Assembly: GCF_000712975.1 (NCBI RefSeq)
Contig: NZ_JHQL01000002.1
Coordinates: 496,001-560,000, forward strand
DNA from: Vreelandella neptunia
GTDB taxonomy: Bacteria; Pseudomonadota; Gammaproteobacteria; Pseudomonadales; Halomonadaceae
Direction of reading: 5' to 3'
Length of the DNA: 64,000 bases
Each line of letters begins with the position of its first letter. Positions within the stretch are counted from its first letter, which is position 1. Under the pieces are notes generated by a model. It made no database searches. It worked only from the letters and a program-made list of their open reading frames with translations, and had not been told where the DNA came from. Positions 3,596-20,564 of this stretch are shown in pieces. The position numbers and the translations under genes were made by a program.

Positions 3596-3614
3596 GGAGA
3601 CGGCAACACACTGA

Positions 3615-3633: not shown

Positions 3634-3666
3634 CCGTTGTTAATAAAGCGATGATGTCAGACGTTA

Positions 3667-5262
3667 TCAGCCTGCGAACGAGGCGTACATAATCACCACG
3701 AGTACCACAAGCACAATGCCGGTTGGCACAGCGCCCTTCCAAGGCGTAAGGTCCACATCGCCCGAATCTTCTTGCACCCAGGCGGTGGCGCGGGGGCGCA
3801 GCTTACCAATAATCAGCATTACGGCGACCAACAGCACGAACACCGCGGCGACAAAGTGGAACTCATGCATCACCATCGGTAGCTTGTTAAACGGCGGAAC
3901 AAAGTAGCCAGCCGCGATCAGCAAACAGCCCCCTACCAGCGCTACTTTAGCCGCCATGGGAGGCACGCGTTTCGTCAGAAGCCCCACCAGAACAACCGCT
4001 AAAATAGGGATAAAGTAAATGGCGTTCATCTTCTGCAGATAGCCAAATAGGCTATCCTGGCCTGCTAACAGCGGCGCAATAACCATGGTTGTGACAGCCA
4101 TGATCCAGCCAAACACCTTGCCTGATTTCACGACTTCTTCTTCAGTGGCATCTTTTTTAAGCACACCTTTATAGATTCCCAGGCTGAAAATCGTGGTGGT
4201 GCTGTTTAGCGCCGAGTTAAATGAGGAGAGAATCGCCCCCACCATTACTGCAGCAAAAAAACCTGTTAGGTACGGCGGTAGAACGTTAAATACCAAGTGG
4301 CCATAGGCTTCGTCTGCGCGAACGCCTTGGTCGGCATAGAGGTGGTAAGCAATGATACCCGGCAGCACCAGATAGAGCGGACCTAACAGCTTAAAGAAGC
4401 CGGTTAGCAGCACGCCCTTCTGACCTTCAGCCAGGTTTTTAGCCGCAAAAGTGCGCTGGATAATCTGCTGATTCGTTGTCCAATAAAACAGATGCAGTAA
4501 TAAAACACCGGTGAAGATAGTCGAAAACGGCACCTGCTGATCAGGGCCACCTACCGAGTTAAATTTACTCGGGTCGCTCTCTTTCAGGATGCTCCAGCCC
4601 TCCATGACACCGCTGCCATTGCTCACTGCCTGAAGGCCGAAATAAACAATCACAAAGCCACCGATCAACAGACCGACGCCATTCAATGTATCTGAGACCG
4701 CCACCGTGCGCAGACCGCCAAATAGCGCATACACCGCGCCGATGATGCCAACCGTCCAGACGGTAGCCCACAGCAGCGCTGTACTCGACTCAATGCCGGT
4801 CAATCCTTGAAGATCCAGCATGCCCTGTAAACCAATCGCCCCTGAATAGAGAATGATGGGCAACAGCACCACGGCGTAAGCAATCAAGAAAATAACGTTG
4901 GCAATCAGTTGGGTACCATTATCAAAACGTATCGCTAACAGCTGGGGGAGCGTCGCGATCCCACTTTTTAGAAAGCGCGGCAGGAAAAACAGAGCCAGTG
5001 CTACTAAAGCAATCACCGCGATCACTTCCCAAGCCATGACACTTAGGCCATCGGTAAACGCCGAACCGTTCAGCCCAACCATCTGCTCGGTTGAGAGATT
5101 AGTCATCAACATTGAGGCGGCAATTAACGGAAAGGTTAGTGTCCTGCCGGCGAGAAAGTAGCCACTGGTGCTTCGGTGATCATCTTGACGTGTGATACGC
5201 CATGTCACAAAGGCCACTAAGCCCGTAAAAAAGATGAACGATGCCAGCGTAAGGGCATGCAT
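3667..5262 (-). CDS. sodium:solute symporter, YidK/SGLT-like (SSS family)
   Basis: A 531-residue inner-membrane protein with about 13-14 hydrophobic segments. The N-terminal part (GYFLAGRTL, then [16 protein letters not shown] near residues 50-66) closely matches the E. coli YidK subgroup of the sodium:solute symporters, which couple Na+ entry to uptake of sugar-like or other organic solutes. The substrate cannot be told from sequence. The ATG at 5262 begins [12 protein letters not shown]. It is a single gene, convergent with the transporter operon and divergent from the chemosensory operon, with its own upstream region. Na+-coupled uptake suits a halophile. Confidence 0.88.
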
Positions 5263-5649
5263 GAAAAAATCCTTAGAAGAAGTCGCTAAACAACAAACGA
5301 CATAGTGAATTTAGGTAAAATTACCAATATGCGCGGGATTCTAAGCAGGTGAAACGATTCATCCATTATGCTTTAGTAGCAATAAAGAATAAATAAGGCG
5401 GTTTTTTACTAATTACTCTCTATTTTGGCAAGACGTTAACGAAAAAGAAGAAATACTGATGCAATATCTGTGCGACAGTATCCAACCGCAGGGCGGGGCG
5501 GTATAGCGCTAAGGAGAAAACTGGACAGCTCTCATAAAAGCCGCTGAAATCATCTTATGATGTATGAGTAACTTTTTTTAATATCATACGATTGGCTCAG
5601 GCACTATCTCTCTATTGGCGACAACAGTTAACTTGGAGCACAAGCGATA
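5263..5649. other. divergent intergenic region, no gene seen
   Basis: A 387-base AT-rich spacer between the symporter (leftward) and the MCP gene (rightward). It must hold the promoters of both, but I could not assign -35/-10 boxes with confidence. Only very short frames occur (for example 15 codons from the ATG near 5459), none with a good ribosome binding site. The MCP start at 5650 has GGAG at 5635-5638. Confidence 0.5.
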
Positions 5650-7677
5650 ATGACAGCGCGTTGGAAATCCTTGCCTTTACGGTTACGACTATTTATTTCG
5701 TTTGGAACGGTATTGGCATTGGCCATGTTGCTAGCGCTCTATTTACAGGCTCGCTCACACAGCCAAGCGCGCTTGACGAACTTGCTAAACGAAGAGTTAC
5801 CTGCCCAGGTAGAGGGCCTTGCTACACGGTTAACCCTACGGCTAAGCCCGGCGTTGGCACTGTCAGAAAGCCTAGCCGACAGCTACTTTATTGAAGAGTG
5901 GGTACGCGATGGGCTGCCCGATACGTCACAACCCGCGATCATGCGTTATTTATCGCGGTTGATGACCCAACTAGACACTGAACTTCTCTTTATCGCTGCT
6001 CAATATCAAGGACGTGGTTACTATTTTCAGTACCGCGATGGGGAGTTTTTAGAGCGAACATTACAAGCGCCTGGCGGCGATGATGATTGGTACTATCAAT
6101 TTACCGACAGCGGCTCCGCTTATAACTTAAACCTAGATAGCGATACATTTTCACCTGAAGAAGCGTTTGTCTTTTTAAATTTCCGCAGCCGTGAGGAAGC
6201 GCTCAATGGTCGCCCACTGGTAGTTGCCGGTGCAGGGTTAGATCTTTCTCGGTTGGCGCAGTTAATTAACGACTTCCGATTAGGCGAAACGGGCCGCGCT
6301 GCATTACTAAACGCGGAAGGCGAACTGCTTATTCGTAGCGACGAAACGTCGCTCGCAGCGCTTCAAAGCCAAGACGCAGACAGCCTATTACAAGATGAAC
6401 ACGAACTTCGTGTACATGAGCTGCAACGGGATGGACAAACCTTTTTAGTCACTACACGCTGGCTGCCCGAGCTGCAGCGTTATTTAATGATTGAAGTCTC
6501 CAAAGAGGAGTATTTAAGCTCCATTAGAGAGCGCTTCTTGGCGTCTACCGGTATCGGGTTGCTGATCCTCTTGGTTGGTCTAATCATTTTATACCCACTT
6601 ACCGGCAGCTTAATTCGCCCTTTAATCCGCTTTCAGCGCCAGCTAAAAGAGATCACTCTTAGTTTAGACTTATCCCGCCGGGTAGAAACCGATGATCGAG
6701 CTGAACTCGGTGTCTTGGCTGACCAAACTAACGAACTGTTAGCCCGACTATCGCGAACTATCATGGCTGTTTCCAATAACGCGTTAGCCCTTACCCAGGT
6801 AGCAGATCGCTTGGCGCAAACGGCAGGGCTATCAGGCATCCAGGGCGGCGATATTCGTCATGAAGCGAATCAGACCATGGCCGCCGCCGTGGAAGAGATG
6901 GCGTCGTCAGTGGCTGAAATTACCTCGACCATGGAAGAACTTTCCACCTCGTCAACGCAAATCGCTGACCACTCCCAATCCGTGGTAGAGGTGGCGAATC
7001 AAACGCTGGAACGCAGCCGTAAGGGCAGCACTGCCATGCAGCTGCTACAGTCTAAAATGCAGGATATTCGTAGCGATAGCGAACAGAGTCTGGCAGAAAT
7101 CATGGCGCTGGGTGCTAAGTCGAAACAAATCAGTAAGGTGATGGAACTGATTAACACCCTTGCTGCGCAAACCAAACTAATTGCTTTCAATGCGGCATTA
7201 GAAGCCTCAAGTGCAGGCGAATCCGGCCGTCGTTTTTCCGTGGTCGCTAATGAAATACGCCGCTTGGCAGACAGCGTAACTGACTCAACCCAAGAGATTG
7301 AAGGCCACACCGAAGATATTCAAAACGCCATTAACCGGCTGGTCGTTGCCTCTGAAAAGGGTGCATCGTCGATTGAGAAAGGCGTTGAGGTCAGCATTAG
7401 TACCGCCCAGGACTTGGATGCCCTGCTCAAAGCGGCCAGCCAAACCAGTAGTGCGGCGCAGCAGATATCGCTGTCAACACAACAGCAGAAAACCGCCAGC
7501 AGTCAGGTGGTGATTGCACTGCGGGATATTGATACCGCCAGCTCGCGTAATGCGCAGTCAGTACGCAGCATAACCGACATCAGCCAGGAGATGATTAACA
7601 TGTCGGCAGAGCTAAACGCTCTGGTGCAGGAGTTTACTCTGGCTCAACAGGATGCAAACCACCAACGCCCTTCGTGA
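5650..7677 (+). CDS. methyl-accepting chemotaxis protein (sensor of a Wsp-like pathway)
   Basis: A 675-residue transmembrane chemoreceptor. TM1 is at about residues 13-35, a periplasmic sensor of about 260 residues follows (no residues identify its fold or ligand with certainty; a Cache-type fold is plausible), TM2 is at about 296-322, then HAMP and a long helical signalling domain. The hairpin tip reads AAQTKLIAFNAALEAS, where classical receptors have AxQTNLLALNAAIEAA, so the tip is recognisable but diverged. No C-terminal CheR-tethering pentapeptide is present. The ATG has GGAG 11 bases upstream. It is the first gene of an eight-gene operon with cheB, cheR, hybrid cheA, a GGDEF protein and two cheW-like genes, so it probably drives c-di-GMP output rather than the flagellar switch. 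Confidence 0.9.
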   Translation: MTARWKSLPLRLRLFISFGTVLALAMLLALYLQARSHSQARLTNLLNEELPAQVEGLATRLTLRLSPALALSESLADSYFIEEWVRDGLPDTSQPAIMRYLSRLMTQLDTELLFIAAQYQGRGYYFQYRDGEFLERTLQAPGGDDDWYYQFTDSGSAYNLNLDSDTFSPEEAFVFLNFRSREEALNGRPLVVAGAGLDLSRLAQLINDFRLGETGRAALLNAEGELLIRSDETSLAALQSQDADSLLQDEHELRVHELQRDGQTFLVTTRWLPELQRYLMIEVSKEEYLSSIRERFLASTGIGLLILLVGLIILYPLTGSLIRPLIRFQRQLKEITLSLDLSRRVETDDRAELGVLADQTNELLARLSRTIMAVSNNALALTQVADRLAQTAGLSGIQGGDIRHEANQTMAAAVEEMASSVAEITSTMEELSTSSTQIADHSQSVVEVANQTLERSRKGSTAMQLLQSKMQDIRSDSEQSLAEIMALGAKSKQISKVMELINTLAAQTKLIAFNAALEASSAGESGRRFSVVANEIRRLADSVTDSTQEIEGHTEDIQNAINRLVVASEKGASSIEKGVEVSISTAQDLDALLKAASQTSSAAQQISLSTQQQKTASSQVVIALRDIDTASSRNAQSVRSITDISQEMINMSAELNALVQEFTLAQQDANHQRPS

Positions 7678-7687
7678 GGATGCCGTG

Positions 7688-8755
7688 ATGAGTGCAATCC
7701 GGGTAGTGATCACGGACGACAGTCAACTAGCGCGCGATGTGCTGCGTAATATCCTCACCCGCGATGGCGATATTGAGATTGTTGGTGAAGCCACTAACGG
7801 GCGTGAAGCGGTGGAACTTGCCCGTCGCTTAGCGCCGCAGTTAATCACCATGGATCTGAATATGCCGGTCATGGACGGTCTCAGCGCCATTGAAGAAATT
7901 ATGCATACCAAAGGGGTGCCGATCCTGGTGGTAAGCGACCGCTCTGATGCCGAAACAGCTTATCGTGCGCTTGATGTTGGCGCGCTAGAGGTTATGCAGA
8001 AGCCAACCCTTGATGATGAAGACGCACAACGACTACTCGCGCGTGTTCGACTGCTGTCGGGAGTAGCCGTGATTACTCGCCTACGGCGCCGCCCCACCTC
8101 GGTTATGCCTGTTGTGGCGATAAACGCACCACCTGTCTGTCACCCCACTATGCCGAAAGCGTTTCAACGCATCGTCGCTATTGCTTGCTCTACCGGTGGG
8201 CCGCAGGCATTGGCCCATTTACTGAGTAAGCTGCCCGCCAACTTTCCTGCGCCAGTGGTGATTGCTCAACATATCAGCCATGGGTTTATTGAAGGCATGG
8301 CGCACTGGCTGGCATCACTATGTTCAATGCCAGTTCGCGTTGCTCAACATGGTGAACCGCTCAAACCAGGGTGTATTTATCTATCGCCGTCGGAAACTAA
8401 CCTCCATGTAACGCCTAATCACCGCCTACAGTTACAACAAGGGCCTGACAATGCGCTCTACCACCCTAGCTGCGATGCGCTGTTAACGAGCGTTGCCAAT
8501 GTATATGGTCCGGAGGCAATTGGTGTCATTTTAACGGGCATGGGACGCGACGGCGTTAATGGGGTGCGTGCCATACACCTAGCGGGCGGTAGCACCTTTG
8601 CTCAAAATGAAGCTAGCTCGGTCATCTATGGGATGAACCAAGAAGCGGTGAATGCCGGTGTTATTCAACACATTGTGGCGCTTGATGAGCTACCTGATAG
8701 GCTTATTCATGAATCAAGCGGTCAACGGTCATCTTCGTGGATGCAACCGCTATGA
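7688..8755 (+). CDS. CheB/WspF-like protein-glutamate methylesterase
   Basis: A 355-residue two-domain protein: an N-terminal receiver with the phosphoacceptor Asp in ITMDLNMPVMDG, and a C-terminal methylesterase with the serine in ACSTGGPQ, the histidine in AQHISHGF and the aspartate in TGMGRDGVNG. It removes methyl groups from the receptor for adaptation. I start it at the ATG at 7688 (MSAIRVVITDDSQ) because GAGGA at 7676-7680 precedes it by 7 bases; the frame is open to an ATG at 7652, but that lies inside the MCP gene and lacks a binding site. The stop overlaps the cheR ATG as ATGA. Confidence 0.93.
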   Translation: MSAIRVVITDDSQLARDVLRNILTRDGDIEIVGEATNGREAVELARRLAPQLITMDLNMPVMDGLSAIEEIMHTKGVPILVVSDRSDAETAYRALDVGALEVMQKPTLDDEDAQRLLARVRLLSGVAVITRLRRRPTSVMPVVAINAPPVCHPTMPKAFQRIVAIACSTGGPQALAHLLSKLPANFPAPVVIAQHISHGFIEGMAHWLASLCSMPVRVAQHGEPLKPGCIYLSPSETNLHVTPNHRLQLQQGPDNALYHPSCDALLTSVANVYGPEAIGVILTGMGRDGVNGVRAIHLAGGSTFAQNEASSVIYGMNQEAVNAGVIQHIVALDELPDRLIHESSGQRSSSWMQPL

Positions 8756-10107
8756 GTTCCATACATTCGCTAACGCCGTTTAAGGATCTCGTACGCCGTC
8801 GCTGTGGTTTACACTTAGAAGGCCTTGCTGAAGCTCGTTTAGTGAAAGCCATTGATACTCTTCAAGCCGAAACCAACGTATCTGATACATCATCGCTTAT
8901 TGCGCAATTAGCGCAAAACGACGTGTTGTTTAATCATTTTATTAGTCAGTTAACGGTAAACGAAACCTACTTTTATCGAGAACCAGAGGCACTTGATTGG
9001 TTAGCCGATGTTCATCTTCCAAAGCGACTAGCTGAAAAAGGTAAGCCACTGGCCATTCTAAGCGCGGGCTGCTCATCGGGCGAAGAACCCTACAGTATCG
9101 CTATTGCGCTGTTTGAGCGTTACGGCGAACGTGCCAAACAACTCTTCCATATTACCGGCGGAGATGTTGATCAGCAGGTACTTAGCAAAGCCCAACAGGG
9201 CATTTACAGCGGCATGTCGTTTCGGGCACTGAGCCCTGCGCTTAAACACCGCTATTTTCGCCCAGAGGGTCGACGCTTCAAAATAGAGGAGACGCTTCGT
9301 CAGTGGATAACTTTTCGCTCGTTCAACGTGTTACAGCCAAATACTGACAAAATCGGCCTCTTCGACGTTATCTTATTTCGCAATGTATCGATCTATTTTG
9401 ACGAATCGACCCGACGCGATATACAGCGCCATTTGCAACAGTTACTGGCGCCAAATGGCGTTTTGTTGTGTGGCGTCACGGAAACCTTAGGCAACGATCT
9501 GGGCGTTTTGGAACTACAGCAGGCCCAGGGGGTGTTTTTCTTCCAGGAGGCGCAGGCCAGCGCTCTACCGGCTAATGATGAGCCACACGATAACGATGAT
9601 GAGTGGCTAGTCCCGCCGGTGCAGGTAGATAATTATTCACCCTCTGAGGATAACGCTGAGTTCGAGTCGCTGACGTCGTTTAACGAAGCCTTACTGCAGG
9701 CTCATCAGTTACTCAACCAGAACGCGTTTTCTGAAGCCGCCGCGCTACTTTCCAAACTGTTAGCCCAACAACCTTGGAGTGTTGATGCGCTGCTACTGGC
9801 AGGTTTAGTTGCTCGTTGGCAGCAGGGCTTTACGGATGCCTATGATTATTTCAAGCGCGCTATTTATGTGGCTCCGGATTGCTGGCCAGCGCACTTTTTT
9901 CAAGCCGAACTTTTCCGTTTAGGCGAGCTTAACGATGCCCCAACGCAGCGTCAGCGTGGCTACGCAGCGGTTATTCGCCTATTGGATGCCTCAAAACAGG
10001 CCGATGGTGGGTTAACGATCATTGAGCCGCCTATCTCACCTGGGGATGCCTACTTTTTGGCAACTCGTCACCTTCGTGCACAAACGGCCACACAGGGAGT
10101 GGGTTAA
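8752..10107 (+). CDS. CheR/WspC-like MCP methyltransferase with C-terminal TPR-like region
   Basis: A 451-residue methyltransferase. The SAM-binding motif is ILSAGCSSGEEPYSIA and the family signature appears as LFRNVSIYFD (usually CRNVLIYF). After the catalytic part (about 1-270) comes an acidic linker and then a helical region with a TPR-like repeat (LLLAGLVARWQQGFTDAYDYFKRA). CheR with TPRs is the WspC architecture. The ATG at 8752 overlaps the cheB stop by four bases; an in-frame GTG at 8737 is a less attractive alternative. Its stop shares one base with the cheA start (TAATG). Confidence 0.9.
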   Translation: MSSIHSLTPFKDLVRRRCGLHLEGLAEARLVKAIDTLQAETNVSDTSSLIAQLAQNDVLFNHFISQLTVNETYFYREPEALDWLADVHLPKRLAEKGKPLAILSAGCSSGEEPYSIAIALFERYGERAKQLFHITGGDVDQQVLSKAQQGIYSGMSFRALSPALKHRYFRPEGRRFKIEETLRQWITFRSFNVLQPNTDKIGLFDVILFRNVSIYFDESTRRDIQRHLQQLLAPNGVLLCGVTETLGNDLGVLELQQAQGVFFFQEAQASALPANDEPHDNDDEWLVPPVQVDNYSPSEDNAEFESLTSFNEALLQAHQLLNQNAFSEAAALLSKLLAQQPWSVDALLLAGLVARWQQGFTDAYDYFKRAIYVAPDCWPAHFFQAELFRLGELNDAPTQRQRGYAAVIRLLDASKQADGGLTIIEPPISPGDAYFLATRHLRAQTATQGVG

Positions 10108-12233
10108 TGGCACTGGATATTAAACGCTTTATTCAGCGCTTTATTGAAGAAGCGTCGGATCACTTGCCCCGTTTAAGGGAAGGTATCGAAGCACTTGAAC
10201 AAGGCGACACCCAGCAAGAGCGAATTAACGAGCTATTTCGCGCTGCTCATACGCTGAAAGGCTCTTCACGTATGCTGAAGCTGACGCCCATTACAGCGAT
10301 CGCTCACAGCACTGAAGAGTTATTAAGCGCACTGCGTGACGGATCACAAACCGTCTCGCCGGATATCACATGTCTTTTAAATCAGGCGACGGATGCCCTG
10401 TCGGACCTGGTCAGTCAACTTGCCCAAAATGTGCCACCCGCAGAGCTACCCGAGGCTGATAGCCAGCTCTGCCAAGCGCTGGAAAACGCCGCTGCGGGAA
10501 AGCTAACCCCAACGTCTGAACGGCTCCCTGAAACAGCAGCACTCGTGAACAGCGAACCTAGCGTTACACCGCCTACCACAAAGAGCCCAGCACTTCCGGC
10601 TCAAGAACTGCGTTTAACAGATACGGTACGCGTGCGCCTTGACCGTTTGGATGACGTGATTCGCCTAATGGGCGAAGTATTATCAGGGCACCATCATTTG
10701 CACTCCCTGGTAGAACAAGCTCGCAGCCTCGGCGCGGCTCTTCCCAAAGATCAGCAGGCCCCCTTTAACGCCTTTAGCCGCGAGTTGAAAGACAGCGTGC
10801 TTTCCCACGACGGGCTAATGAGTGACCTTCATGATCGAGCACTGCAGATGCGTATGTTACCGTTGAGCGTGGTGTTTGACCCCTTATCCCAAATGGCCAG
10901 AGACCTTGCCCATTCGCTAGGCAAACAGGTTAATTGCCGTGTTCACGGCAGTGAAATTGAACTTGACCGACAAATGATAGATCGCCTGTCGGACCCGCTT
11001 ATTCATCTGCTGCGGAATGCACTAGATCACGGTTTGGAAGCACCCGATGAACGCCAAGCAGCGGGTAAGCCTGCTCGGGGGCAGTTGTCGCTAGAGGCAT
11101 GGCAAGACGGCAGCTGGGTAGTGATTGAAATGCGCGATGACGGCGCGGGTATTTCCCTAGAAGCGGTACGCCGCAAGGCGCTCTCCAAGCAGCTGCTCAG
11201 CGAAGAGCAGTTGCTTGCCCTAACCGAACAGGAAACCCTAGAGCTTATTTTCCTGCCCGGCTTTTCAACCAAACCGCTGATTACCGATTTTTCAGGCCGC
11301 GGCGTGGGCATGGATGTCGTCAAACGAACCGTTATTGATGAACTCAACGGTGATTTACATCTTTCCAGCCATTCCGGCAAAGGCACCTGCTTTACCCTGC
11401 GCCTGCCTTTATCGCTGGCCATGATGCGTGTTCTGTTGATAAAAGTGGGTACCATCACGCTAGGTATCACGGCACCTTATGTATCAGAGCTTGTAGAGCA
11501 TCTATCAACGAACTTTATCGATGCTGCTGGGCAAAAAACACTAATCTTACGTAACGAATTTGTTCCAGTCGTTTCTCTCGCAGAATTATTAGGCCTTTCC
11601 TACACGCCCTCTACTGCTGATAATTTGCTATTACTTGTCGTACATCAACGTCATCAAAAACTCGCGTTAATTATCGATGCGTTAGTGGATGAACGCGATA
11701 TGGTGATTAAGCCTTTACCCGCCCATTTACGCCATTTGCCGTTGGTATCGGGTATGGTCACTCTGGGGCGCAATACGCTGGTCAGCCTTTTACATGTACC
11801 AACATTACTGGAGCACTCACGTCGCTATGCACCACGGACGTTAGTGAAAACGGAACAACCGCTCCAGGCGCATCGTATACTGGTTGTCGATGACTCACTG
11901 AACACCCGTGAAATTGAAAAAGACGTTTTAGAGGCATGGGGCTATCAGGTCACACTGGCAGAAAATGGCCGTGATGGGCTTAATAAAGCCCTTGCTGATT
12001 CGTTTGATGCCGTGCTAACCGATGTCGAAATGCCTGTCATGGATGGTTTTGCACTGACTGCAAGTCTGCGAGAAAATGAGCTTTATCGTTATAAGCCTAT
12101 TATCATTATTACATCACGAGAAAAAGAAGCGGATCGCCGACGTGGCATTGAAGTAGGCGCTGATGCCTATATTGTTAAAGGTAGTTTTGATCAAAATAAT
12201 TTAGTGGACACGCTGAGAGCTTTACTCGGCTAA
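10107..12233 (+). CDS. CheA-REC hybrid histidine kinase (WspE-like)
   Basis: A 708-residue kinase. Domains in order: HPt with phosphorylatable H48 in AAHTLKGSSRM; an alanine/proline-rich linker with no recognisable P2 domain; the dimerisation segment (LDRLDDVIRLMGEVL); a GHKL ATPase with the N box in LLRNALDHGLE, G1 in RDDGAGI and G2 in SGRGVGMDVV; a CheW-like P5 domain; and a C-terminal receiver with Asp in VLTDVEMPVMDG. Canonical CheA lacks the receiver; CheA-REC fusions are typical of alternative systems such as WspE, FrzE and ChpA. GGGAG at 10095-10099 serves the ATG. The receiver may act as phosphate sink or as the first step to the HPt of the downstream cyclase. Confidence 0.94.
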   Translation: MALDIKRFIQRFIEEASDHLPRLREGIEALEQGDTQQERINELFRAAHTLKGSSRMLKLTPITAIAHSTEELLSALRDGSQTVSPDITCLLNQATDALSDLVSQLAQNVPPAELPEADSQLCQALENAAAGKLTPTSERLPETAALVNSEPSVTPPTTKSPALPAQELRLTDTVRVRLDRLDDVIRLMGEVLSGHHHLHSLVEQARSLGAALPKDQQAPFNAFSRELKDSVLSHDGLMSDLHDRALQMRMLPLSVVFDPLSQMARDLAHSLGKQVNCRVHGSEIELDRQMIDRLSDPLIHLLRNALDHGLEAPDERQAAGKPARGQLSLEAWQDGSWVVIEMRDDGAGISLEAVRRKALSKQLLSEEQLLALTEQETLELIFLPGFSTKPLITDFSGRGVGMDVVKRTVIDELNGDLHLSSHSGKGTCFTLRLPLSLAMMRVLLIKVGTITLGITAPYVSELVEHLSTNFIDAAGQKTLILRNEFVPVVSLAELLGLSYTPSTADNLLLLVVHQRHQKLALIIDALVDERDMVIKPLPAHLRHLPLVSGMVTLGRNTLVSLLHVPTLLEHSRRYAPRTLVKTEQPLQAHRILVVDDSLNTREIEKDVLEAWGYQVTLAENGRDGLNKALADSFDAVLTDVEMPVMDGFALTASLRENELYRYKPIIIITSREKEADRRRGIEVGADAYIVKGSFDQNNLVDTLRALLG

Positions 12234-12258
12234 GCACACTTCATGGTGGGGGGTAATC

Positions 12259-12615
12259 ATGCAAATTTTGGTCGTAGACGACGACCCATTAGCCTGTGAA
12301 ATGACAGCAGCGTTACTTGAGTTTCAAGGCTATACAACGATCATGGCCAATGATGCCATGGAGGCTGTTCAACACTTGGACAACCTGGATACTATCGAGC
12401 TTATTGTCAGCGACATGCATATGCCGCTTATTAATGGCATCGAATTTTTGGAAATGTTGCGTGAACAAGACGTCTCTCTGCCTTTTATTTTACTCAGCGG
12501 CGACACCCCTGAGCCAGAGCTACTGCAAACACCAGGCTTGAATGCCTGCTTACAAAAAGATGCGCAGCTAACCTCTACACTCCAACATGCCGTGACCCAA
12601 GCGCTCAATGGTTAA
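12259..12615 (+). CDS. single-domain response regulator (CheY-like)
   Basis: A 118-residue stand-alone receiver. The acidic pocket is D7-D8-D9, the phosphoacceptor is D52 in IVSDMHMP, the switch Ser is in LLSGDTPEP and the conserved Lys is in LQKDAQ. It has no output domain, so it acts by protein contact or as a phosphate shuttle between the CheA-REC hybrid and the HPt-containing cyclase, its direct neighbours. The start follows a G-rich stretch (TGGGGGG) that probably serves as the ribosome binding site. Confidence 0.9.
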   Translation: MQILVVDDDPLACEMTAALLEFQGYTTIMANDAMEAVQHLDNLDTIELIVSDMHMPLINGIEFLEMLREQDVSLPFILLSGDTPEPELLQTPGLNACLQKDAQLTSTLQHAVTQALNG

Positions 12616-12669
12616 ACCTAAGCTATCTGCTTCACGACGCATCGTTTGCCCACATAAACAGGTAGTCTG

Positions 12670-14382
12670 ATGTCATCCTCTGCTCCGACGCTGCACGAAA
12701 AGCTGAACCATTTGCGCCACCGTTTTATTGAACAGCTGCCAGCACGTTTACAGCAAACCGCCGACAAGTGGCAACAAAGCCACCTGTCGCTGGAGGCAGA
12801 GTCACGCTTAGCGCCTGAACTCCATCGCTTTTTCCACAGCTTAAAAGGTACAGGGCGCTCGTTAGGCTTTGAGCGCATTGCGATGTTAGCCAATCAAGGC
12901 GAAGAAGCGCTAAAAACAAGCCCTACTCCACCTACATTAAACAGCTTGATACCTCAGCTTTTTCAACAGCTTGCCGAGGAAATTAAGTATTTGCAGTCCC
13001 AGCAAGGCCAGCAGACGGTGCTGGCATCGCTTAACAGTATTGAGCTGTCATCGGCCATTGCACAGCCACGCAGTAAGCGTCAACGGCTAATCTATTTATG
13101 CGACGACGAACCCGACCAAGTTAGTCAGCTGCTGCATCACCTGCGCTGTTTCGGCCATGAAGTGGTTCATTTTGAAGACACCGAATCTTTCTTTAACGCG
13201 GTCATTACCCGTCGACCCGACGCTATCATCATGGATGTGCAGTTTCCTCAAGGTAACACCGCGGGTACTGAAACGCTGACCAGCCTGAACAAGCTCACCG
13301 GAGAACGGCTGCCTTCTATTGTATTGTCATCCTACGGCGATTTTTATTCACGGCTGAGCGCTGTTCGTGCTGGCTGCAATGGCTACTTTACTAAGCCCAT
13401 TAAGCCACTGGATTTAATGTTAGCCATCGATGAACTCACCACTCCACTAGATGAAGAGCCTCTGCGCGTATTGGTCGTTGATGATGAGCCAGAAGCAGCG
13501 GCCTATCACTCATTGATTCTTGAAGAAGCAGGTATGATTGTTCAGCAGGTTAATCACCCTGCGGATGCGTTAGCGGCGCTGGACCGTTTTAGTCCTGACT
13601 TACTGCTAATTGATGTCTATATGCCAGTGTGTTCTGGGGAAGAGCTGGCGACGATTATTCGCCAGCAATCCGCGCATATTGGCCTGCCGATTATTTATCT
13701 ATCTAGCGAAACAGACAGCCAAAAGCAGCTTTCGGCCATGACCGCAGGCGTAGAGGCCTTTATTACTAAGCCTGTTACCCCCGATGAACTGGTCTCTGCG
13801 GTACAGCTGCGTGCCGAACGCTTGCATTTACTGCGCTCTCTGATGACCCAAGACAGCATGACGGGGCTTTATAACCATAGCACCACCACTGACATGATCG
13901 GTAAAGCCCTCGCCCATGCCTATCGCGAAGGCAGCCAGCACGCCATGGCCATGCTGGATATCGATCATTTTAAAACCGTCAATGATACCCATGGGCACTT
14001 AGCGGGTGATCAGGTCATTATCACACTGGCTCGGCTGCTAAAAACTCGCTTGCGCGTATCCGATATTATTGGACGCTATGGTGGGGAAGAGTTTGTTGTA
14101 TTACTAAAAGGGATCACTGCAGAACGCGCAGCCGAACTTATTGATGAACTGCGCCACGATTTTGAACTAGTGGATTTTCATGCCGGTGGAGAGCGCTTTC
14201 GCTGCACCTTCAGTGCAGGCATTAGCAGTTTTCCTAACCAGCCTTCCACTGAAGCGTTACGCCTTAGCGCAGACCAAGCGCTTTACCTTGCTAAGCGGCA
14301 AGGGCGTAATCAAGTAGTGATCAGTAAAGAGCATGACCCAAACCATCGTAGCGCAGCACAACGTGACACGGGAAAACAATGA
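12670..14382 (+). CDS. HPt-REC-REC-GGDEF diguanylate cyclase
   Basis: A 570-residue output protein that should make c-di-GMP. Domains: an N-terminal HPt with H56 in FFHSLKGTGR; a first receiver (about 135-255, Asp in AIIMDVQFPQG); a second receiver (about 265-385, VVDDEPEA and LLLIDVYMP); and a GGDEF domain (about 390-555). The active site is intact (GRYGGEEFVVLL) and an I-site RVSD sits five residues before it, so product inhibition is expected. WspR has one receiver and no HPt, so this is a more elaborate output module. Lying between the lone receiver and cheW, and overlapping cheW by ATGA, it is clearly part of the chemosensory operon. Confidence 0.92.
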   Translation: MSSSAPTLHEKLNHLRHRFIEQLPARLQQTADKWQQSHLSLEAESRLAPELHRFFHSLKGTGRSLGFERIAMLANQGEEALKTSPTPPTLNSLIPQLFQQLAEEIKYLQSQQGQQTVLASLNSIELSSAIAQPRSKRQRLIYLCDDEPDQVSQLLHHLRCFGHEVVHFEDTESFFNAVITRRPDAIIMDVQFPQGNTAGTETLTSLNKLTGERLPSIVLSSYGDFYSRLSAVRAGCNGYFTKPIKPLDLMLAIDELTTPLDEEPLRVLVVDDEPEAAAYHSLILEEAGMIVQQVNHPADALAALDRFSPDLLLIDVYMPVCSGEELATIIRQQSAHIGLPIIYLSSETDSQKQLSAMTAGVEAFITKPVTPDELVSAVQLRAERLHLLRSLMTQDSMTGLYNHSTTTDMIGKALAHAYREGSQHAMAMLDIDHFKTVNDTHGHLAGDQVIITLARLLKTRLRVSDIIGRYGGEEFVVLLKGITAERAAELIDELRHDFELVDFHAGGERFRCTFSAGISSFPNQPSTEALRLSADQALYLAKRQGRNQVVISKEHDPNHRSAAQRDTGKQ

Positions 14383-14966
14383 CCGATACTGCTCCACAAC
14401 GTGATGCACAAGCTATCTCTCTTGAAGAAGCGCTAGCACGCCAGAGTAACGACGAGTCGATTATTGATGTGGACGAACCCTGCCAGCAGTTGGTGCTATT
14501 TCGTTTAGCCGGTCAACGCTTCGCCTTCCCTGGCAGTGCGGTCAATGAAATTTTGAACGGTGACCAACCCGTGTATTTTGTGCCTGGGCTGCCCGACTCG
14601 ATGGAAGGTGTGATTCACTTACGCGGCAACATTGAATCGGTGATGACGCTGCGGTCACTGCTTGAGCTTCCCCCTGCAGAACAAACGGGCATGCTGTTAT
14701 TAGTTACTGCAGCAGGCATTCGTAGCGCCGTTCGTATCGACCATTTAGACGATGTTTGCGACATTCCGATCAGCACGCTAAAACCCGCCCCAGACACCCT
14801 TTCCAGACAGTTAACGCCCTATGTAAGTGGGCTCTGGCAACCTGAAGCAACGCCGGAAGAGAGCGAGAGAGAAGCAGCTGAAGGTTATTCTGAAAAACGC
14901 AGCGCAGCCATTGTTTTACTCGACCCAGACGCGTTATTCAGTGCTTATCAGCAAGGCTTAGGGTAA
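14379..14966 (+). CDS. CheW-like coupling protein
   Basis: A 195-residue protein with a CheW domain between short extensions. The core reads QLVLFRLAGQRFAFPGSAVNEIL, then VPGLPDSMEGVIHLRGNIESVMTL, and a third conserved stretch ending near residue 150. CheW links receptors to the CheA P5 domain in the sensory array. The start overlaps the cyclase stop as ATGA, and the second coupling-like gene follows three bases after its stop. Two scaffold genes in the operon match the Wsp system, which also has two (WspB and WspD). Confidence 0.88.
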   Translation: MTDTAPQRDAQAISLEEALARQSNDESIIDVDEPCQQLVLFRLAGQRFAFPGSAVNEILNGDQPVYFVPGLPDSMEGVIHLRGNIESVMTLRSLLELPPAEQTGMLLLVTAAGIRSAVRIDHLDDVCDIPISTLKPAPDTLSRQLTPYVSGLWQPEATPEESEREAAEGYSEKRSAAIVLLDPDALFSAYQQGLG

Positions 14967-14969
14967 GTC

Positions 14970-15380
14970 ATGGTAAATGGTGCACCGAAGCACTCCTCAG
15001 ACCCACCGTCCCATGTTGCCTTAGTGCTATTTAATGCTGGCAAGACCCTGGCCGCCATTGAAGCACGTCATATCACTGGGTTAGCGAACATAGCCCGCTT
15101 ACCACGATGCGCCAATGCTGAGCGCCTACTGCTTAATACTCAACTAATAAGCATAGCCCCTACTCACTGGCTCACCCTGCAAGATGCCGATGGCGCTTGG
15201 CAGTTAGGTGTCTCGGGAGAAGTTGTTTTAGCACATACGCCAATAGTGGAACTGTTTCCATTGCCCGCTCTAATTGCTGCACGCCACGCAAGCCCCGCTC
15301 TGCGAGGCTTAGCGTTGGCCAACCAAACGGTACGCTTGTTATTTGATGGCGCAGCGCTTAAACCAGACCTAACGCTGTAA
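14970..15380 (+). CDS. small divergent CheW-like protein
   Basis: A 136-residue protein closing the chemosensory operon. It has the beta-rich rhythm of a CheW domain (VALVLFNAGKTLAAIEARHITGL at the start, LLLNTQLISIAP in the middle) but little motif identity, so CheW-like is inferred mainly from position and length. No signal peptide or membrane segment. The start lies three bases after the cheW stop. Its end overlaps the end of moeA on the other strand by 12 bases, so no terminator separates the convergent operons. Confidence 0.6.
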   Translation: MVNGAPKHSSDPPSHVALVLFNAGKTLAAIEARHITGLANIARLPRCANAERLLLNTQLISIAPTHWLTLQDADGAWQLGVSGEVVLAHTPIVELFPLPALIAARHASPALRGLALANQTVRLLFDGAALKPDLTL

Positions 15381-16574
15381 CCATAAACAGCGAACCGGCG
15401 TGCCTTTCTCTATCTGCTGGTGCGGGTCAATCACCGCTAATGCGTCAGCACTAATACACGATGAAAGCACGCCTGAGTTTTGGTCTTCAAACGCATCAGC
15501 TATGACGCCCTCCTCGCTAAACCGCAGCGCAACACGCATATAGTGCTGGCGTGGGCCAGTACTCGTGTTGAAATTAGCCGTGGCCATTAGGGCAGGCAAG
15601 GCGCTCAACGCTGAGCAACCCAGTAGGCTTCCCATCAAAGGACGTAAAAACAACCACGCGCCCACAAACCCAGAAACAGGGTTACCCGGCAGCCCTACAA
15701 AACGCGCCTCGCTGCCATCTTCACGTGGCAGACGGCCTAGCGCCAACGGTTTTCCTGGGCGAATCGCCAGTTTCCACATATCTAATTGGCCTAGCGATTC
15801 CAGCGCAGCCTTAACATGATCTTCTTCTCCGACGCTAACCCCACCGGTGCTGACAACCACATCAGCGACGGAGGCGGCTTGCGTTAATAATTTGACCGTC
15901 TGGGCATAATCGTCAGGCACACTAACCCGCTGTACCACCTCCGCACCAAAGTTTTCTAGCAATCGTTTCAGCATCGGCTGATTAGAGTTATATAGCTGAC
16001 CTGGCTTTAACGGCGTGCCAGGGTCAACTATTTCGTCACCCGTCGACAGTAGCGCTACTCTCGGCCGACGACGCACGCTCACCTGGGTAATTCCTTGCCC
16101 CGCCAAATGCCCCAGCGCTGCCGCCTCCAGGCGCTCGCCTGCCGCCAGCAGCAGCTCCCCCTGGTGTACATCACGCCCTTGGCGGCGCACGTTGTCGCCC
16201 ACCGGCAGTGCATCCGGCATCAATACTTGGTCACCGTGCTGCGTTACCCGCTCTTGCATCACTACACAGTCGGCGCCATCAGGAATCTCACCGCCGGTAA
16301 AAATGCGCGCACAACTGCCTGGTGCCAAGGGTACAGCGGGGCTGCCCGCCGCAATACGCTGGCTGATCGGCAGCCACTTGCCCGCATCACTGGCACGAAG
16401 CGCGTAGCCATCCATTGCGCTGTTATCAAATGGCGGGACGTCTAGCTGTGCGTTAACAGCGTCGGTCAACACACGCCCAGCTGCCGCATCAAGCGGCACA
16501 CGCTCAGCGCCAAGCGGAGTGACATCGGCTAGCAGCGCTTCAAGCGCGGCACTTATCGGCTGTAACTCAGCCAT
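15369..16574 (-). CDS. moeA: molybdopterin molybdenumtransferase MoeA (copy 1)
   Basis: A 401-residue MoeA, which inserts molybdate into adenylylated molybdopterin. Visible motifs: NSAMDGYALRASD near residue 50, LSTGDEIVDPG, STGGVSVGEEDHVK near 245, RPGKPLALG and GLPGNPVSGF. Length is typical. The ATG at 16574 sits in a 37-bp sequence also found at the end of moaB (18512-18548). In that second copy the moeA start bases ATGGCTGA overlap the moaB stop, showing that moaB and moeA were once adjacent and overlapping; a 1.9-kb insertion now separates them. Because the insertion removed co-transcription with moaB, moeA must use a promoter within the insert (inference). A second moeA lies at 29689. 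Confidence 0.95.
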   Translation of the reverse strand: MAELQPISAALEALLADVTPLGAERVPLDAAAGRVLTDAVNAQLDVPPFDNSAMDGYALRASDAGKWLPISQRIAAGSPAVPLAPGSCARIFTGGEIPDGADCVVMQERVTQHGDQVLMPDALPVGDNVRRQGRDVHQGELLLAAGERLEAAALGHLAGQGITQVSVRRRPRVALLSTGDEIVDPGTPLKPGQLYNSNQPMLKRLLENFGAEVVQRVSVPDDYAQTVKLLTQAASVADVVVSTGGVSVGEEDHVKAALESLGQLDMWKLAIRPGKPLALGRLPREDGSEARFVGLPGNPVSGFVGAWLFLRPLMGSLLGCSALSALPALMATANFNTSTGPRQHYMRVALRFSEEGVIADAFEDQNSGVLSSCISADALAVIDPHQQIEKGTPVRCLWLQR

Positions 16575-16603
16575 GCTGCCCCCGGCCTGGAATGACGAGG
16601 TTG
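16567..16603. repeat. 37-bp direct repeat, left copy (moeA start side)
   Basis: Bases 16567-16603 are identical to 18512-18548 over 37 positions, with mismatches immediately outside both ends. This copy contains the first eight bases of moeA and 29 bases of its leader. It bounds the insertion on the left. Confidence 0.95.
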
Positions 16604-16829
16604 TTAAACATAAGCTGGTTATTATGAAATAGTGGCATAGTCGTCTCTAAAAACAGGAAAATTGAAGTAGTGAAACCCAAGAATTAGATGATCGGTATAG
16701 GTAGAATGCCACGATCAACGGATAGAAACAGCTAGCTAATGTCTTCACTAAGCGGCATTCCAAGCAGCCTAAGACAAAAAGAATCGCTGGTGCCGTTGGG
16801 CAGTCACCCAAAAAAGAGAGCCTAGCGCT

Positions 16830-18284
16830 ATGTCCCAGCAACGCGATACTGATTTGATCAATGAGCTATTAGCTCAAGGTTCTGAAACCGATTGGTTAGA
16901 GTTCAAAAAAGATAATTTTGAACCTGAGATGATTGGGGTTCGCTGTTCAGCGTTGGCTAATGCGGCACGCCTGATTGGTAAGGATACCGCTTACATGCTT
17001 TGGGGAATTGACGATGCAACGCTTAGCGTGATCGGGTCTAAATTCAATCCACATACACAAAAGGCTAATGGGCAAGAACTGGCGTTTTGGCTGGCACGAC
17101 AATTACAACCCAGCATTCCATTCCAATTTAGACGTATCGAACATCCGCATGGCAATGTGGTTATTCTAGAAATACCCGCAGCGACCGCTGCGCCCGTTGC
17201 TTTCAAAAACATCCCTTACATTCGAATTGGTAGCGCAACTCCTAAGCTAACAGATTATCCAGAGCGTTATCAGCAACTTATTGAGCGTCTGCGACCCTAC
17301 ACCTGGGAGCACGCAGTGGCACGGCAATACATCAGCGGTGATGATGTATTGGATCTGCTGGATTACAGTAGCTATTTCAAACTCACCAAACAACCATTGC
17401 CAGATAATCGACAGGGAATTTTCGATAAGCTAGCAGCCGAACGCCTGATTCACCAAGATGTGGGTGGACACTGGAACATCACCAACCTAGGTGCCATTCT
17501 TTTCGCTGCCGACCTCACTCAGTTTGATAGCGCTTTGGCGCGTAAAGCAGTCCGTTTCACTGCTTATCTAGGAAAAAATCGTGCAGCGCAGGTAAGCCAC
17601 CGAGTAGAAGGTAAAAAAGGCTATGCCGTTGGTTTTGAAGGACTCATTGAGTTTATTAACAGCATTCTGCCGAAAAATGAACATATAGATGTAGCACTAC
17701 GCACCGAAGAGCCGTTATTTCCGACCATCGCGGTTCGTGAAGTGATTGCCAATGCGCTGATCCATCAGAATATGACTATTTCTGGAGCTGGCCCGCAGAT
17801 CGAAGTTTTTCAAGATCGCATAGAGATAACTAATCCTGGTAAGCCATTAGTGCCCGCAGACAGAATGATTGATCTCCCGCCCCGTTCGAGAAATGAAGCG
17901 CTAGCGTCGCTGATGCGGCGAATGGGGATGTGTGAAGAGCAAGGTAGCGGCCTGGATAAGGTGATTGCTTCCATTGAAATGTTCCAGTTGCCTCCACCGC
18001 TGTTTCGAGAAGAAGGTAACGCCATGCAGGTCGTGCTTTACGGGCCTCGCCACTTTGCCCAGATGACACCAGAAGAGCGTACCAGGGCATGCTACCAGCA
18101 TGCTGTGCTTAAATTTTTAACAGGGGAGCGAATGAAGAACGCGACATTATGCGCGCGATTCGGAATTGAAAGCCGCAATGCTTCTCAAGCATCTGTGGTC
18201 ATTAAAAAGGCAAAAGAAGCTGGATTAATACGCGAAGCAGATCCCGAGCACCCAAGAGCAGGTTACGTCCCGCAGTGGGCATGA
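16830..18284 (+). CDS. AlbA_2 (Schlafen-like) and RecG-C-like GHKL ATPase protein
   Basis: A 484-residue protein. The N-terminal AlbA_2-type domain (about 10-150) shows ETDWLEFKKDNF, YMLWGIDDATL and IPYIRIGS. The C-terminal half holds a GHKL-type ATPase (about 290-400) with VREVIANALIHQNM, FQDRIEITNPG and EEQGSGLDKVI. A winged-helix-like tail follows (about 415-484). This architecture is usually annotated as putative DNA-binding protein or RecG-like helicase; it is not a helicase by motif. Such genes are common cargo on islands and near defence loci, but no cellular role is firmly established. It is the only gene in the insertion and is transcribed against its neighbours. Confidence 0.85.
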   Translation: MSQQRDTDLINELLAQGSETDWLEFKKDNFEPEMIGVRCSALANAARLIGKDTAYMLWGIDDATLSVIGSKFNPHTQKANGQELAFWLARQLQPSIPFQFRRIEHPHGNVVILEIPAATAAPVAFKNIPYIRIGSATPKLTDYPERYQQLIERLRPYTWEHAVARQYISGDDVLDLLDYSSYFKLTKQPLPDNRQGIFDKLAAERLIHQDVGGHWNITNLGAILFAADLTQFDSALARKAVRFTAYLGKNRAAQVSHRVEGKKGYAVGFEGLIEFINSILPKNEHIDVALRTEEPLFPTIAVREVIANALIHQNMTISGAGPQIEVFQDRIEITNPGKPLVPADRMIDLPPRSRNEALASLMRRMGMCEEQGSGLDKVIASIEMFQLPPPLFREEGNAMQVVLYGPRHFAQMTPEERTRACYQHAVLKFLTGERMKNATLCARFGIESRNASQASVVIKKAKEAGLIREADPEHPRAGYVPQWA

Positions 18285-18422
18285 TTTCTTGATCGTGTTT
18301 TGATTCATTCTAGCTAACTTACGTTTTTCTTCTCTAAAAACTATGTTAATTAATGAGTTAGACTTTTAGTTTTCTTGATCCACTCTTGATCCTACGGCAG
18401 GCAGAGCGCCAAGAAAGAACAC

Positions 18423-18456
18423 TGTCACATGGCCTACAGGGGCAGGCCATGTGACA
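18423..18456. terminator. 13-bp perfect inverted repeat inside the insertion
   Basis: Arms 18423-18435 (TGTCACATGGCCT) and 18444-18456 (AGGCCATGTGACA) are perfectly complementary around an 8-base loop. It lies 140 bases after the ATPase gene. No T tract follows on the plus strand, so it may be a weak terminator, an operator or a structural part of the element. Confidence 0.5.
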
Positions 18457-18511
18457 TTAGAAAATTGTAGCCTTACTTTTCAGCTAGTAACAGCTATAAA
18501 CACGAACGCTT

Positions 18512-18548
18512 TCAGCCATGCTGCCCCCGGCCTGGAATGACGAGGTTG
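18512..18548. repeat. 37-bp direct repeat, right copy (moaB end side)
   Basis: Identical to 16567-16603. This copy encodes the last residues and stop of moaB and ends exactly at the moaB TGA. It contains a vestigial moeA start (ATGGCTGA on the minus strand), which dates the insertion after the moaB-moeA overlap existed. Confidence 0.95.
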
Positions 18549-19030
18549 GCGAAGTTGCAGGGTTTGTGACGACTGTCGAGCTGTTCCGCCAAAATGCCGT
18601 CCCAACCAGTGCGGCAGGCGCCGGTTGAACCTGGCAGGCAAAACATGACTGTGGCATTAGCGAAGCCACCTAACGCGCGGCTTTGAATGGTTGAACTACC
18701 AATCTCATCACCACTCAGCTGGCGAAAACGTTCACCGAATCCCTCAATACGCTTATCCAGTAGCACGGACACCGCCTCAGGCGTCGAGTCACGCCCCGTA
18801 AAGCCAGTGCCGCCCGTGGTAATCACCACCTGAACGTTGGCATCGGCAATCCACTGGGCAACGACCGCGCGGATTTGGTAGACGTCATCTGGCACGATGC
18901 GCTTTTCGGCTAGGGTGTGACCTGCTTCGGTTAAACGTTGTACCAGCGCTTGTCCAGAGCGGTCGGTCTCTTCCGTGCGCGTATCCGATACCGTCAATAC
19001 CGCTATTTTTAAGGGCTCCATGCTGTCCAT
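18512..19030 (-). CDS. moaB: molybdenum cofactor biosynthesis protein MoaB
   Basis: A 172-residue MoaB/MogA-fold protein acting in molybdopterin adenylylation. The family signature VVITTGGTGFTGRDSTPEAV (near residue 80) and the MPT-binding fold motif AVLTVSDTR at the start are clear. The ATG at 19030 has GGAG seven bases upstream; a second in-frame ATG lies three codons on. It follows DUF1244 by four bases, so DUF1244-moaB (and formerly moeA) form an operon. The final residues (VIPGRGQHG) are encoded by the 37-bp repeat, so the insertion left the protein intact. Confidence 0.94.
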   Translation of the reverse strand: MDSMEPLKIAVLTVSDTRTEETDRSGQALVQRLTEAGHTLAEKRIVPDDVYQIRAVVAQWIADANVQVVITTGGTGFTGRDSTPEAVSVLLDKRIEGFGERFRQLSGDEIGSSTIQSRALGGFANATVMFCLPGSTGACRTGWDGILAEQLDSRHKPCNFANLVIPGRGQHG

Positions 19031-19034
19031 GGGC

Positions 19035-19361
19035 TTACTCCTTGGCTTTTTTCTGGGCTTGGCGAGCCTCTAATGCGGCTAGCTGTTCAGGAGTTGCGGT
19101 ACCTTGGTAGTGGGCTTTCCATTCGCTGTAGGGCATGCCGTAGACATACTCACGGGCAGCGTCATAGTCCAGTGCTTTACCTTGCTCATCTGCTGCCGTA
19201 ACTAGCCATTTAGATAGGCAGTTACGACAGAAGTCAGCAAGAATCATTAGGTCGATATTTTGCACATCTTTATTATCGTCTAAATGTTGTAGCAAGCGGC
19301 GAAACGCGGCAGCTTCTAGTTCTGTACGCGTGGTTTGGTCTAGTTCATTGAACGATGACAT
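19035..19361 (-). CDS. DUF1244 domain protein
   Basis: A 108-residue cytoplasmic protein with the DUF1244 signature IDLMILADFCRNCLSKWL and a lysine/alanine-rich tail. No function is established. I start it at the ATG at 19361 (MSSFNELDQ), which has AGAGG about eight bases upstream; the open frame extends 16 codons further (to 19409) into the terminator region, which argues against a longer start. It is the first gene of the moaB transcript. Linkage to Moco genes may be incidental. Confidence 0.85.
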   Translation of the reverse strand: MSSFNELDQTTRTELEAAAFRRLLQHLDDNKDVQNIDLMILADFCRNCLSKWLVTAADEQGKALDYDAAREYVYGMPYSEWKAHYQGTATPEQLAALEARQAQKKAKE

Positions 19362-19404
19362 TACCGATCCTCTTATCAAGTGACTGTGAAGCAGCATAAC
19401 AAAA

Positions 19405-19426
19405 GACACCGCCCGAAGGCGGTGTC
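19405..19426 (-). terminator. rho-independent terminator of the fdh operon
   Basis: On the minus strand a 9-bp stem GACACCGCC/GGCGGTGTC with loop TTCG is followed by TTTTGTT. It lies 23 bases after the fdh gamma-subunit stop and before DUF1244, separating the two transcripts. Confidence 0.85.
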
Positions 19427-19448
19427 GAAAAGCGTTTCAGCAAACGGC

Positions 19449-20564
19449 TTAGCTAGGCTTAGTGGCGGAAACATCGCCACCACTACTGCTACCCGCTTTT
19501 TGTGCCGCGACTTCTTCTTCGCTTAGGGCTTGATCTTTGACCTCTTCGTACCACAAGTTGTGGTGCTCTTTGGCCCAGGTTTCATCGACATAGCCTGTGG
19601 TCATACCTTCCAGTGAACCTTCCGTTCCGACGGTGCCAATATAAATATGGCCTAGCGCAACCGCCGTTAAACCCAGCGCACCCACTGCGTGGATAATATT
19701 TGCCCACTGCATAGTGTCACGGCCTTGGCCATAGTTGGGGAAGTCGAGTACAAAGCCACTGGCTACCACCACCAACCCAGCAGTTGCTAACAGCCAGTAC
19801 CACGCTTTCTCACCACCGTTGGCAAAGCCTGCATCTGGGTGGCCTTTACCCACCAGCCCACCACCCATTTTGAACCACTGCAAATCGTGCTTTTTCGGAA
19901 TGTTGTCTTTCAGCAATTTGAGCAGCAGCACCACCAACAGGATGCCAAACACCGGGCCGAGGTAGTTATGCAGTACTTTGGAAGCGGAGATCATCCACGC
20001 CCAAACGGCATCGCCAAACAGCGTGCGAAACACAAATTTACCAAATAGCAGATTCAAACCGGTTAACGCTAAGGTGATAAACAGCGTAGCCACGGTCCAG
20101 TGAAGCGACCGCATAAGCAACGACCAGCGAAAAAGCTTTCGCCCTGTGCGCGGTTCATCGAGGTGTTTGCGCCCAACAATAAAGTAGAACAGCGCAATCA
20201 CTGCAATCATCCCACCAACCGTAATCAACCCAAACGGTGACACCCAACGGTTGCGGATCTGCCGCCAAGTTTCACCACTTGAATTAATCAGGTTGTAGTT
20301 ACTGTCAAAACGCGAGTCGCGATAGTTAGGCCCTGTTTCTCCACTGCGAACCTGCCGCCACTGGTCGGCACTAATACCAGGAGCAGCGGTTACCATTTCG
20401 CGGTCTGTATCAGCTTGGGCAACCGCTAGTTGAGACATGCCAAAACTTGCAACCACCAGCAGTAACAGGATGCCGATACGCCAACAGCGCTGGAAAAACG
20501 CCCTCAACCAAGGTGCCTGTGAAGGCACCTGAGAGGTCGTTGTTGTTATGGTCATTGATGTCAT
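19449..20564 (-). CDS. formate dehydrogenase gamma subunit (cytochrome b556)
   Basis: A 371-residue membrane subunit that passes electrons from the Fe-S subunit to quinone. An N-terminal hydrophobic segment, probably a signal or anchor (about 25-50), is followed by a periplasmic stretch and then four or five membrane helices. Candidate haem-ligating histidines lie in RSLHWTVATLF, SKVLHNYLGP, NIIHAVGAL and ALGHIYIG. It is longer than E. coli FdnI (about 217) because of the N-terminal extension, a form common in other proteobacteria. Last gene of the operon, 11 bases after the beta subunit, followed by a clear terminator. Confidence 0.92.
   Translation of the reverse strand: MTSMTITTTTSQVPSQAPWLRAFFQRCWRIGILLLLVVASFGMSQLAVAQADTDREMVTAAPGISADQWRQVRSGETGPNYRDSRFDSNYNLINSSGETWRQIRNRWVSPFGLITVGGMIAVIALFYFIVGRKHLDEPRTGRKLFRWSLLMRSLHWTVATLFITLALTGLNLLFGKFVFRTLFGDAVWAWMISASKVLHNYLGPVFGILLVVLLLKLLKDNIPKKHDLQWFKMGGGLVGKGHPDAGFANGGEKAWYWLLATAGLVVVASGFVLDFPNYGQGRDTMQWANIIHAVGALGLTAVALGHIYIGTVGTEGSLEGMTTGYVDETWAKEHHNLWYEEVKDQALSEEEVAAQKAGSSSGGDVSATKPS

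Follow-up and report, generated by a model that had tools for sequence, protein, structure and literature searches.

A direct repeat at the moaB-moeA junction of Vreelandella neptunia bounds a remnant of a type I restriction island and may keep moeA translatable

The genes moaB and moeA lie intact and co-directed on the minus strand of the window, a stretch of 64,000 nucleotides from a Vreelandella neptunia contig (NZ_JHQL01000002.1), and are separated by an insert with a single long gene (Table 1). A direct-repeat scan of positions 16000-19500 revealed a pair with 37 of 37 identical bases at the insert borders, the runner-up having 20 bases at 80 % identity. Terminal inverted repeats were not found: none of the eight inverted-repeat pairs reported for the same region was located at the insert ends. 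The conspecific genome G103 presents the empty site with one copy of the 37-mer; its alignment to the window had an identity of 99.4 % over 1-16603 and of 99.15 % over 18512-39212, with nothing between. Because G103 joins both flanks via this single copy, the insert has a size of exactly 1,945 bp, 37 duplicated and 1,908 unique. The single-copy junction reads CAGCATGGCTGA; the moeA ATG overlaps the moaB stop, and the ancestral overlap of the two genes comprised eight bases (ATGGCTGA). With up to three mismatches, the 37-mer occurred in 13 of 97 genomes, twice in the genome of the window and once in 12 others. That it is a common repeat throughout the genome was rejected, as both of these copies in the window's genome are located at moaB-moeA. 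An earlier note, made from the letters of the window, had described the perfect repeat around a 1.9-kb insert, its end at the moaB stop, the eight-base ancestral overlap and the integrity of both proteins, and had expected relatives lacking the insert to show overlapping genes with one 37-mer. The repeat scan, the ORFs and Pfam matches of both genes, the moaB protein identical to that of G103, the empty site and the exact overlaps in the genus reported below agree with this description. Terminator-like sites numbered five in the stretch against 1.8 expected, and a hairpin different from that of the window follows moaB in some other alleles, as judged by eye. No convincing promoter was detected in the stretch, the two promoter-like sites standing against 2.6 expected. 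Adjoining the repeat, at 18569-18581, three SNPs in 13 bases separate the window from G103, followed by none up to 20444 (~1.8 kb). The sequence suggests perhaps a short imported tract; a donor was not found by eye among 20 aligned relatives.

Table 1 Features of the moaB-moeA region, in window positions
Feature	Position	Strand	Basis or remark
moeA	15369..16574	-	PF03453, PF00994, PF03454
Repeat copy 2, tail of the leader ORF and moeA start	16567..16603	-	Repeat scan, allele comparison
Leader mini-cistron, MPLFHNNQLMFNNLVIPGRGQHG*, 23 codons, stop overlaps moeA start	16567..16638	-	
Conserved module at the right end, with the 5' part of the leader, its Shine-Dalgarno-like motif and the upstream region	16604..16732	-	
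Shine-Dalgarno-like AGAG preceding the leader start	16645..16648	-	Read from sequence
Apparent hsdS 3' remnant, 16 aligned bases directly before the SLFN start	16814..16829	+	BLAST against the G108 and G043 islands
SLFN/AlbA_2-HATPase_c_4 gene, 484 aa, remaining gene of the island	16830..18284	+	PF04326 SLFN_AlbA_2, PF13749 HATPase_c_4
Terminator-like hairpin, 15 pairs, 3' of moaB	18423..18456	-	
Repeat copy 1, moaB tail, terminates at the moaB stop	18512..18548	-	Repeat scan, allele comparison
moaB	18512..19030	-	PF00994; protein identical to G103 moaB; last 37 bases are the upstream repeat copy

The insert gene encodes a SLFN/AlbA_2 protein with 91-92 % amino acid identity to the product of a gene between hsdS and hsdR in two relatives, G108 and G043. 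Both carry an island of the order hsdM-hsdS-SLFN-hsdR at the same moaB-moeA site. The window and these islands share DNA over the SLFN gene, a part of the intergenic stretch following it, the right 202 bp and 16 aligned bases from the end of hsdS; by the DNA alignment against the islands and by the ORF list, the window insert lacks hsdM, hsdR and almost the whole of hsdS. Thus, the set of hsdM, hsdS and hsdR that makes a type I island is present at this site in G108 and G043 and missing in the window. The window insert derives by deletion from a type I restriction island, of which the SLFN/AlbA_2 gene alone has been left. The "unusual cargo element" of the earlier note was half correct: the insert does carry cargo, which is actually the leftover of a type I restriction island. 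The HsdR of G108 scored above the cut-off of NF046051 (EcoAI/FtnUII family). In comparison to G108, 206 changed bases of the SLFN gene were in silent and 63 in replaced codons; since the changes are mostly silent, the orphan gene seems to have been under selection, at least for much of its history. Among the PADLOC matches of the insert gene, the best had an E-value of 2.5e-5 to Aga_SIR2-PNTD1-PNTD2 and covered a part of the protein, and NCBIfam assigned no family. Between the islands of G108 (L059/L086) and G043 (L067/L087), the alikeness was 0.84-0.96 for hsdM, the hsdS end and SLFN (84-96 % identity) and 0.41-0.60 for the rest of hsdS. The flanks and hsdR were near the core divergence (hsdR 0.76-0.86 per 200-bp bin, core 0.58-0.79). 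This uneven divergence therefore points to an old island with later internal exchange around the specificity gene.

All 82 genus genomes possess moaB. Seventy-eight were scorable for the junction, moeA lying outside the fetched stretch in G030, G002, G060 and G032: inserts larger than 400 bp were present in 9, the exact moaB-moeA overlap in 59 and small differences of -3 to 22 bases in 10. A tenth insert, that of Halomonas sp. PA16-9, came from the plasmid collection. The cargo belongs to at least three unrelated types: the hsdM-hsdS-SLFN-hsdR genes of G108 and G043, a different type I system, accompanied by helicase and AAA genes, in G025, and a TRAP transporter, an HMG-CoA reductase and a MocR-like regulator in G017, G045, G008 and PA16-9, with the reductase called by Pfam and the transporter and regulator assigned by reading of the sequences. 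Two small inserts hold an ORF of 178 aa without Pfam match (G035) and a stretch of 0.57 kb (G042). The TRAP transporter and HMG-CoA reductase genes that are the cargo at L046:1605-7135 form an operon, which in G017 contains an IS3-like element. The inserts are scattered on the moaB+moeA tree, with at least nine changes compared to 9.6 for shuffled labels, and for the window's genome the tree prefers a gain to losses that would have occurred separately in G103 and G041. In Vreelandella, this junction is a hotspot for insertions. The PA16-9 record (NZ_CP040452.1, L227; 1.83 Mb), labelled as plasmid, carries chromosome-like moaB and moeA genes and may be a piece of a chromosome.

Within the nine inserts, no tyrosine integrase or resolvase was detected, all 98 PF00589 and 6 PF00239 matches of the genomes being located outside; the insert of PA16-9 was checked by its ORF list. 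For the window these searches, the ORF list and Pfam support the view of the earlier note that the insert holds one gene and neither transposase nor integrase, and its failure to see terminal inverted repeats was reproduced by the scan. Transposases of the rve, IS-type kind occur in G017 and G025. A transposon or IS element as the origin was rejected for the lack of a transposase and of terminal inverted repeats and for repeat lengths of 9-38 bp between alleles. Of the marks of an integrase-borne island, end repeats that match one site of the empty strains were found (G103 and others), a recombinase gene in the element was not. A degenerate pattern of the moaB tail gave no exact match in viral contigs, and phage records yielded three weak partial matches to the tail and nothing more; a phage attachment site was rejected on these results. 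Among 65 plasmid records with a match, a query coverage above 80 % was reached in PA16-9 only, which carries its own moaB-moeA pair with insert.

The repeat copy at moeA forms the 3' end of a short leader ORF, the stop of which overlaps the moeA start in the way the moaB stop once did. In eight of the nine alleles this ORF begins with ATG behind a Shine-Dalgarno-like motif (by eye AGAG, AGAGG, AGGG, GAGGG or AGGA), stays open for 22-28 codons and overlaps the moeA start with its stop, the arrangement that a coupled uORF-gene pair would have. In G042 the leader frame is kept although the copy of the moaB tail has apparently decayed. In G045 the leader is broken by a one-base deletion in a run of G, a frameshift that may be an error because the assembly is poor (86 % complete, 6 % contamination, several cargo ORFs broken). 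A right module of ~130 bp is shared by seven alleles with unrelated cargo, the window's and those of 6 of the 274 other family genomes (E<1e-16). The matches have 74-86 % identity, all six begin at one common edge, and all are located at moaB-moeA inserts; insertions of the same family at other loci, for which the earlier note had proposed a search, were thus not encountered at this threshold. Four further matches in the 275 family genomes, with at most three candidates scored per unmatched genome, spanned 20-48 bases with E-values of 0.0009-0.0075. A left end common to different cargo types was not evident in the allele alignment. A leader without cargo was not present among the genus genomes examined; the order "duplication first" was therefore not seen in Vreelandella. 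In equal context, the predicted openness was lower for the moeA start (0.13-0.42) than for the leader start (0.43-0.66) in seven of eight folded alleles (G045 was left out), with G035 reversed (0.38 versus 0.29). A shorter leader context rendered the leader start more open in all eight; the equal-context result is preferred. The lower value may arise because the moeA context is richer in G+C (8 of 8 alleles), and the predicted accessibility helps a coupling of moeA to the leader little.

The length of the repeat differs among alleles, with values of 9, 20, 25 and 36-38 bp. Its two copies are matched within genomes: the total difference was 23 in the true pairs and 38.8 in the mean, and 2 of 720 pairings, the true one included, were as low. 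This test comprised six genomes; G042, G025, G035 and PA16-9 were left out for want of a full-length repeat or as near-copy of G008. Both copies of the window's genome equal the single copy of G103, its nearest insert-free relative, and of G041, those of G108 the copy of its nearest insert-free relative G001. An exception is G008 with seven differences between its own copies. The likeness within genomes implies that the copies were either homogenised, by conversion or recombination with insert-free relatives, or made locally; a fresh local duplication at each insertion also fits because the copies match the host lineage. The identity of the right module follows the core identity (Spearman 0.80, 21 non-independent pairs of seven alleles, with G025, G035 and PA16-9 excluded).

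A parallel was found in Halomonas, another genus of the family. At 15 of 80 named Halomonas loci (L197, L209 and 13 others), moaB and moeA are separated by one to four mini-cistrons in tandem, without cargo. These have 14-35 codons, are made from moaB-tail sequence and each overlap the start that follows. The majority are variants of ...RHKPCNSLxxxANLVIPERGQHG*. The moaB-tail motif recurs at distances of 85, 88, 94 and 220 bp; each of the 25 steps measured has a length of 1 mod 3, the phase in which the relay is maintained. Thirteen of the 15 chains run complete to the long MoeA ORF; the other two are L224, which reaches its contig end, and L193. In several loci, e.g., of H. nitroreducens and H. 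maura, a mini-cistron starts with moeA-like codons and ends with the moaB tail, as expected from tandem duplication across the overlap. The tails match within genomes (observed 43, null mean 77.5, none of 20,000 reaching so low a value, uncorrected for relatedness). Upstream of the shared tail, the resemblance of the Vreelandella leader to the Halomonas mini-cistron was not significant, 36 of 300 shuffles being as good, which leaves a common origin of these parts unsupported.

We consider it fairly probable that the junction is a hotspot occupied in the window by an eroded type I island, with a junction duplication that would be kept for coupling and would allow cargo turnover and precise loss. 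The insert, its empty site, the relation to the hsd islands, the unrelated cargos, the shared right module and the sequence anatomy are observations; from these we infer the coupling, the origin by tandem duplication and the loss by recombination between the repeats. According to this reading, moeA would be translated by coupling to an ORF that ends on its start codon. Because of this coupling, an insert would persist only with a duplicated junction of moaB tail, ribosome-binding region and stop/start overlap, which would place moeA after a short ORF with the same kind of ending as moaB. Probably the duplication originated in tandem across the overlap, as in Halomonas, rather than as a target duplication of transposition, and may have been retained through selection on moeA. 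Recombination would keep the moeA-side copy similar to the local moaB tail. The repeat pair would also allow the cargo to be lost precisely and so account for the patchy distribution, and cargo could be swapped by ordinary recombination between conserved ends. The window copy would afterwards have lost hsdM, hsdR and nearly all of hsdS. A wider generalization is tentative and, in our estimate, falls somewhat short of an even chance: tandem duplication of a stop/start overlap between genes may create coupling cassettes, mini-cistrons derived from the tail of the upstream gene that would pass ribosomes along to the downstream gene and evolve in concert with the parent gene; they may also serve as a landing pad at which unrelated islands insert and from which they depart precisely with no need of an integrase.

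The earlier note had proposed an insertion with duplication of a 37-bp target. The insertion stands; a target-site duplication by that event is less supported, because the copy at moeA is part of a leader module that has its own start codon and accompanies unrelated cargos, and because repeat lengths vary and Halomonas duplicates the same tail without cargo. A separate insertion in each case, through illegitimate repair or through an unknown type of transposition with a local target duplication of 20-38 bp, would account for copies that match the host lineage and for the differing lengths; we hold it improbable, since unrelated cargo inserted independently would not give one 130-bp right module in seven alleles, with a divergence that follows the core. 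Site-specific integration would assign to the 37-mer the role of an attachment site, for an element that carries the moaB 3' end and whose integrase was lost or acted in trans. This is unlikely and still a serious rival: gene-restoring repeats, one fixed site and varied cargo resemble att sites, dusA islands carry attachment repeats of 21 bp (PMC4482086), and the nine genomes hold tyrosine integrase genes elsewhere, with 6-15 matches each. It is opposed by the lack of PF00589 and PF00239 matches within any of the nine inserts, by the viral and phage results on the moaB tail, by the variable repeat length and by the absence of an evident left end across cargo types. Another unlikely alternative concerns the leader, which may be incidental if moeA uses its own Shine-Dalgarno region within the repeat and selection acts on that region only. 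Many alleles have, by eye, a purine-rich sequence of the GGGGG or GAGG type shortly before the moeA ATG; however, ATG, preceding motif and open frame of the leader are kept in eight of nine alleles while the codons between diverge, and the Halomonas units keep their length of 1 mod 3.

The 37-base repeat is a copy of the gene junction and may keep moeA translatable. This offers an account of how foreign DNA can settle between overlapping, coupled genes and leave the downstream gene unharmed; it would also account for an island site that is used recurrently and lacks an integrase. The Halomonas arrays present a natural experiment on termination-reinitiation, in which the number of relay ORFs between one pair of genes ranges from one to four. 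The open literature searched contained, among the matches listed, no paper on moaB-moeA insertions or mini-cistron arrays in Halomonadaceae. Genomic islands at the ends of protein genes, such as those associated with dusA (PMC4482086) and SGI1 at trmE (PMC8409611), have a fixed housekeeping-gene site, direct repeats, varied cargo and an integrase gene. The moaB-moeA inserts share with them the fixed housekeeping-gene site, flanking repeats and varied cargo; in contrast to these integrase-bearing islands, no integrase was found in the inserts, the repeat length varies, and conservation concerns the leader module that belongs to the downstream gene. Like EcoAI-type islands, the G108 island at moaB-moeA has hsdM, hsdS and hsdR together, whereas the window keeps the accessory SLFN/AlbA_2 gene only. 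Translational coupling via stop/start overlap and uORFs is treated by Huber et al. 2019 (PMC6728339) and in a review (PMC12548453). Like the coupled uORFs described there, the leader is a short ORF with an overlapping stop/start and could hand ribosomes on to moeA; it differs from them in that it ends in a copy of the tail of the displaced upstream gene and in that tandem arrays of such units exist in Halomonas.
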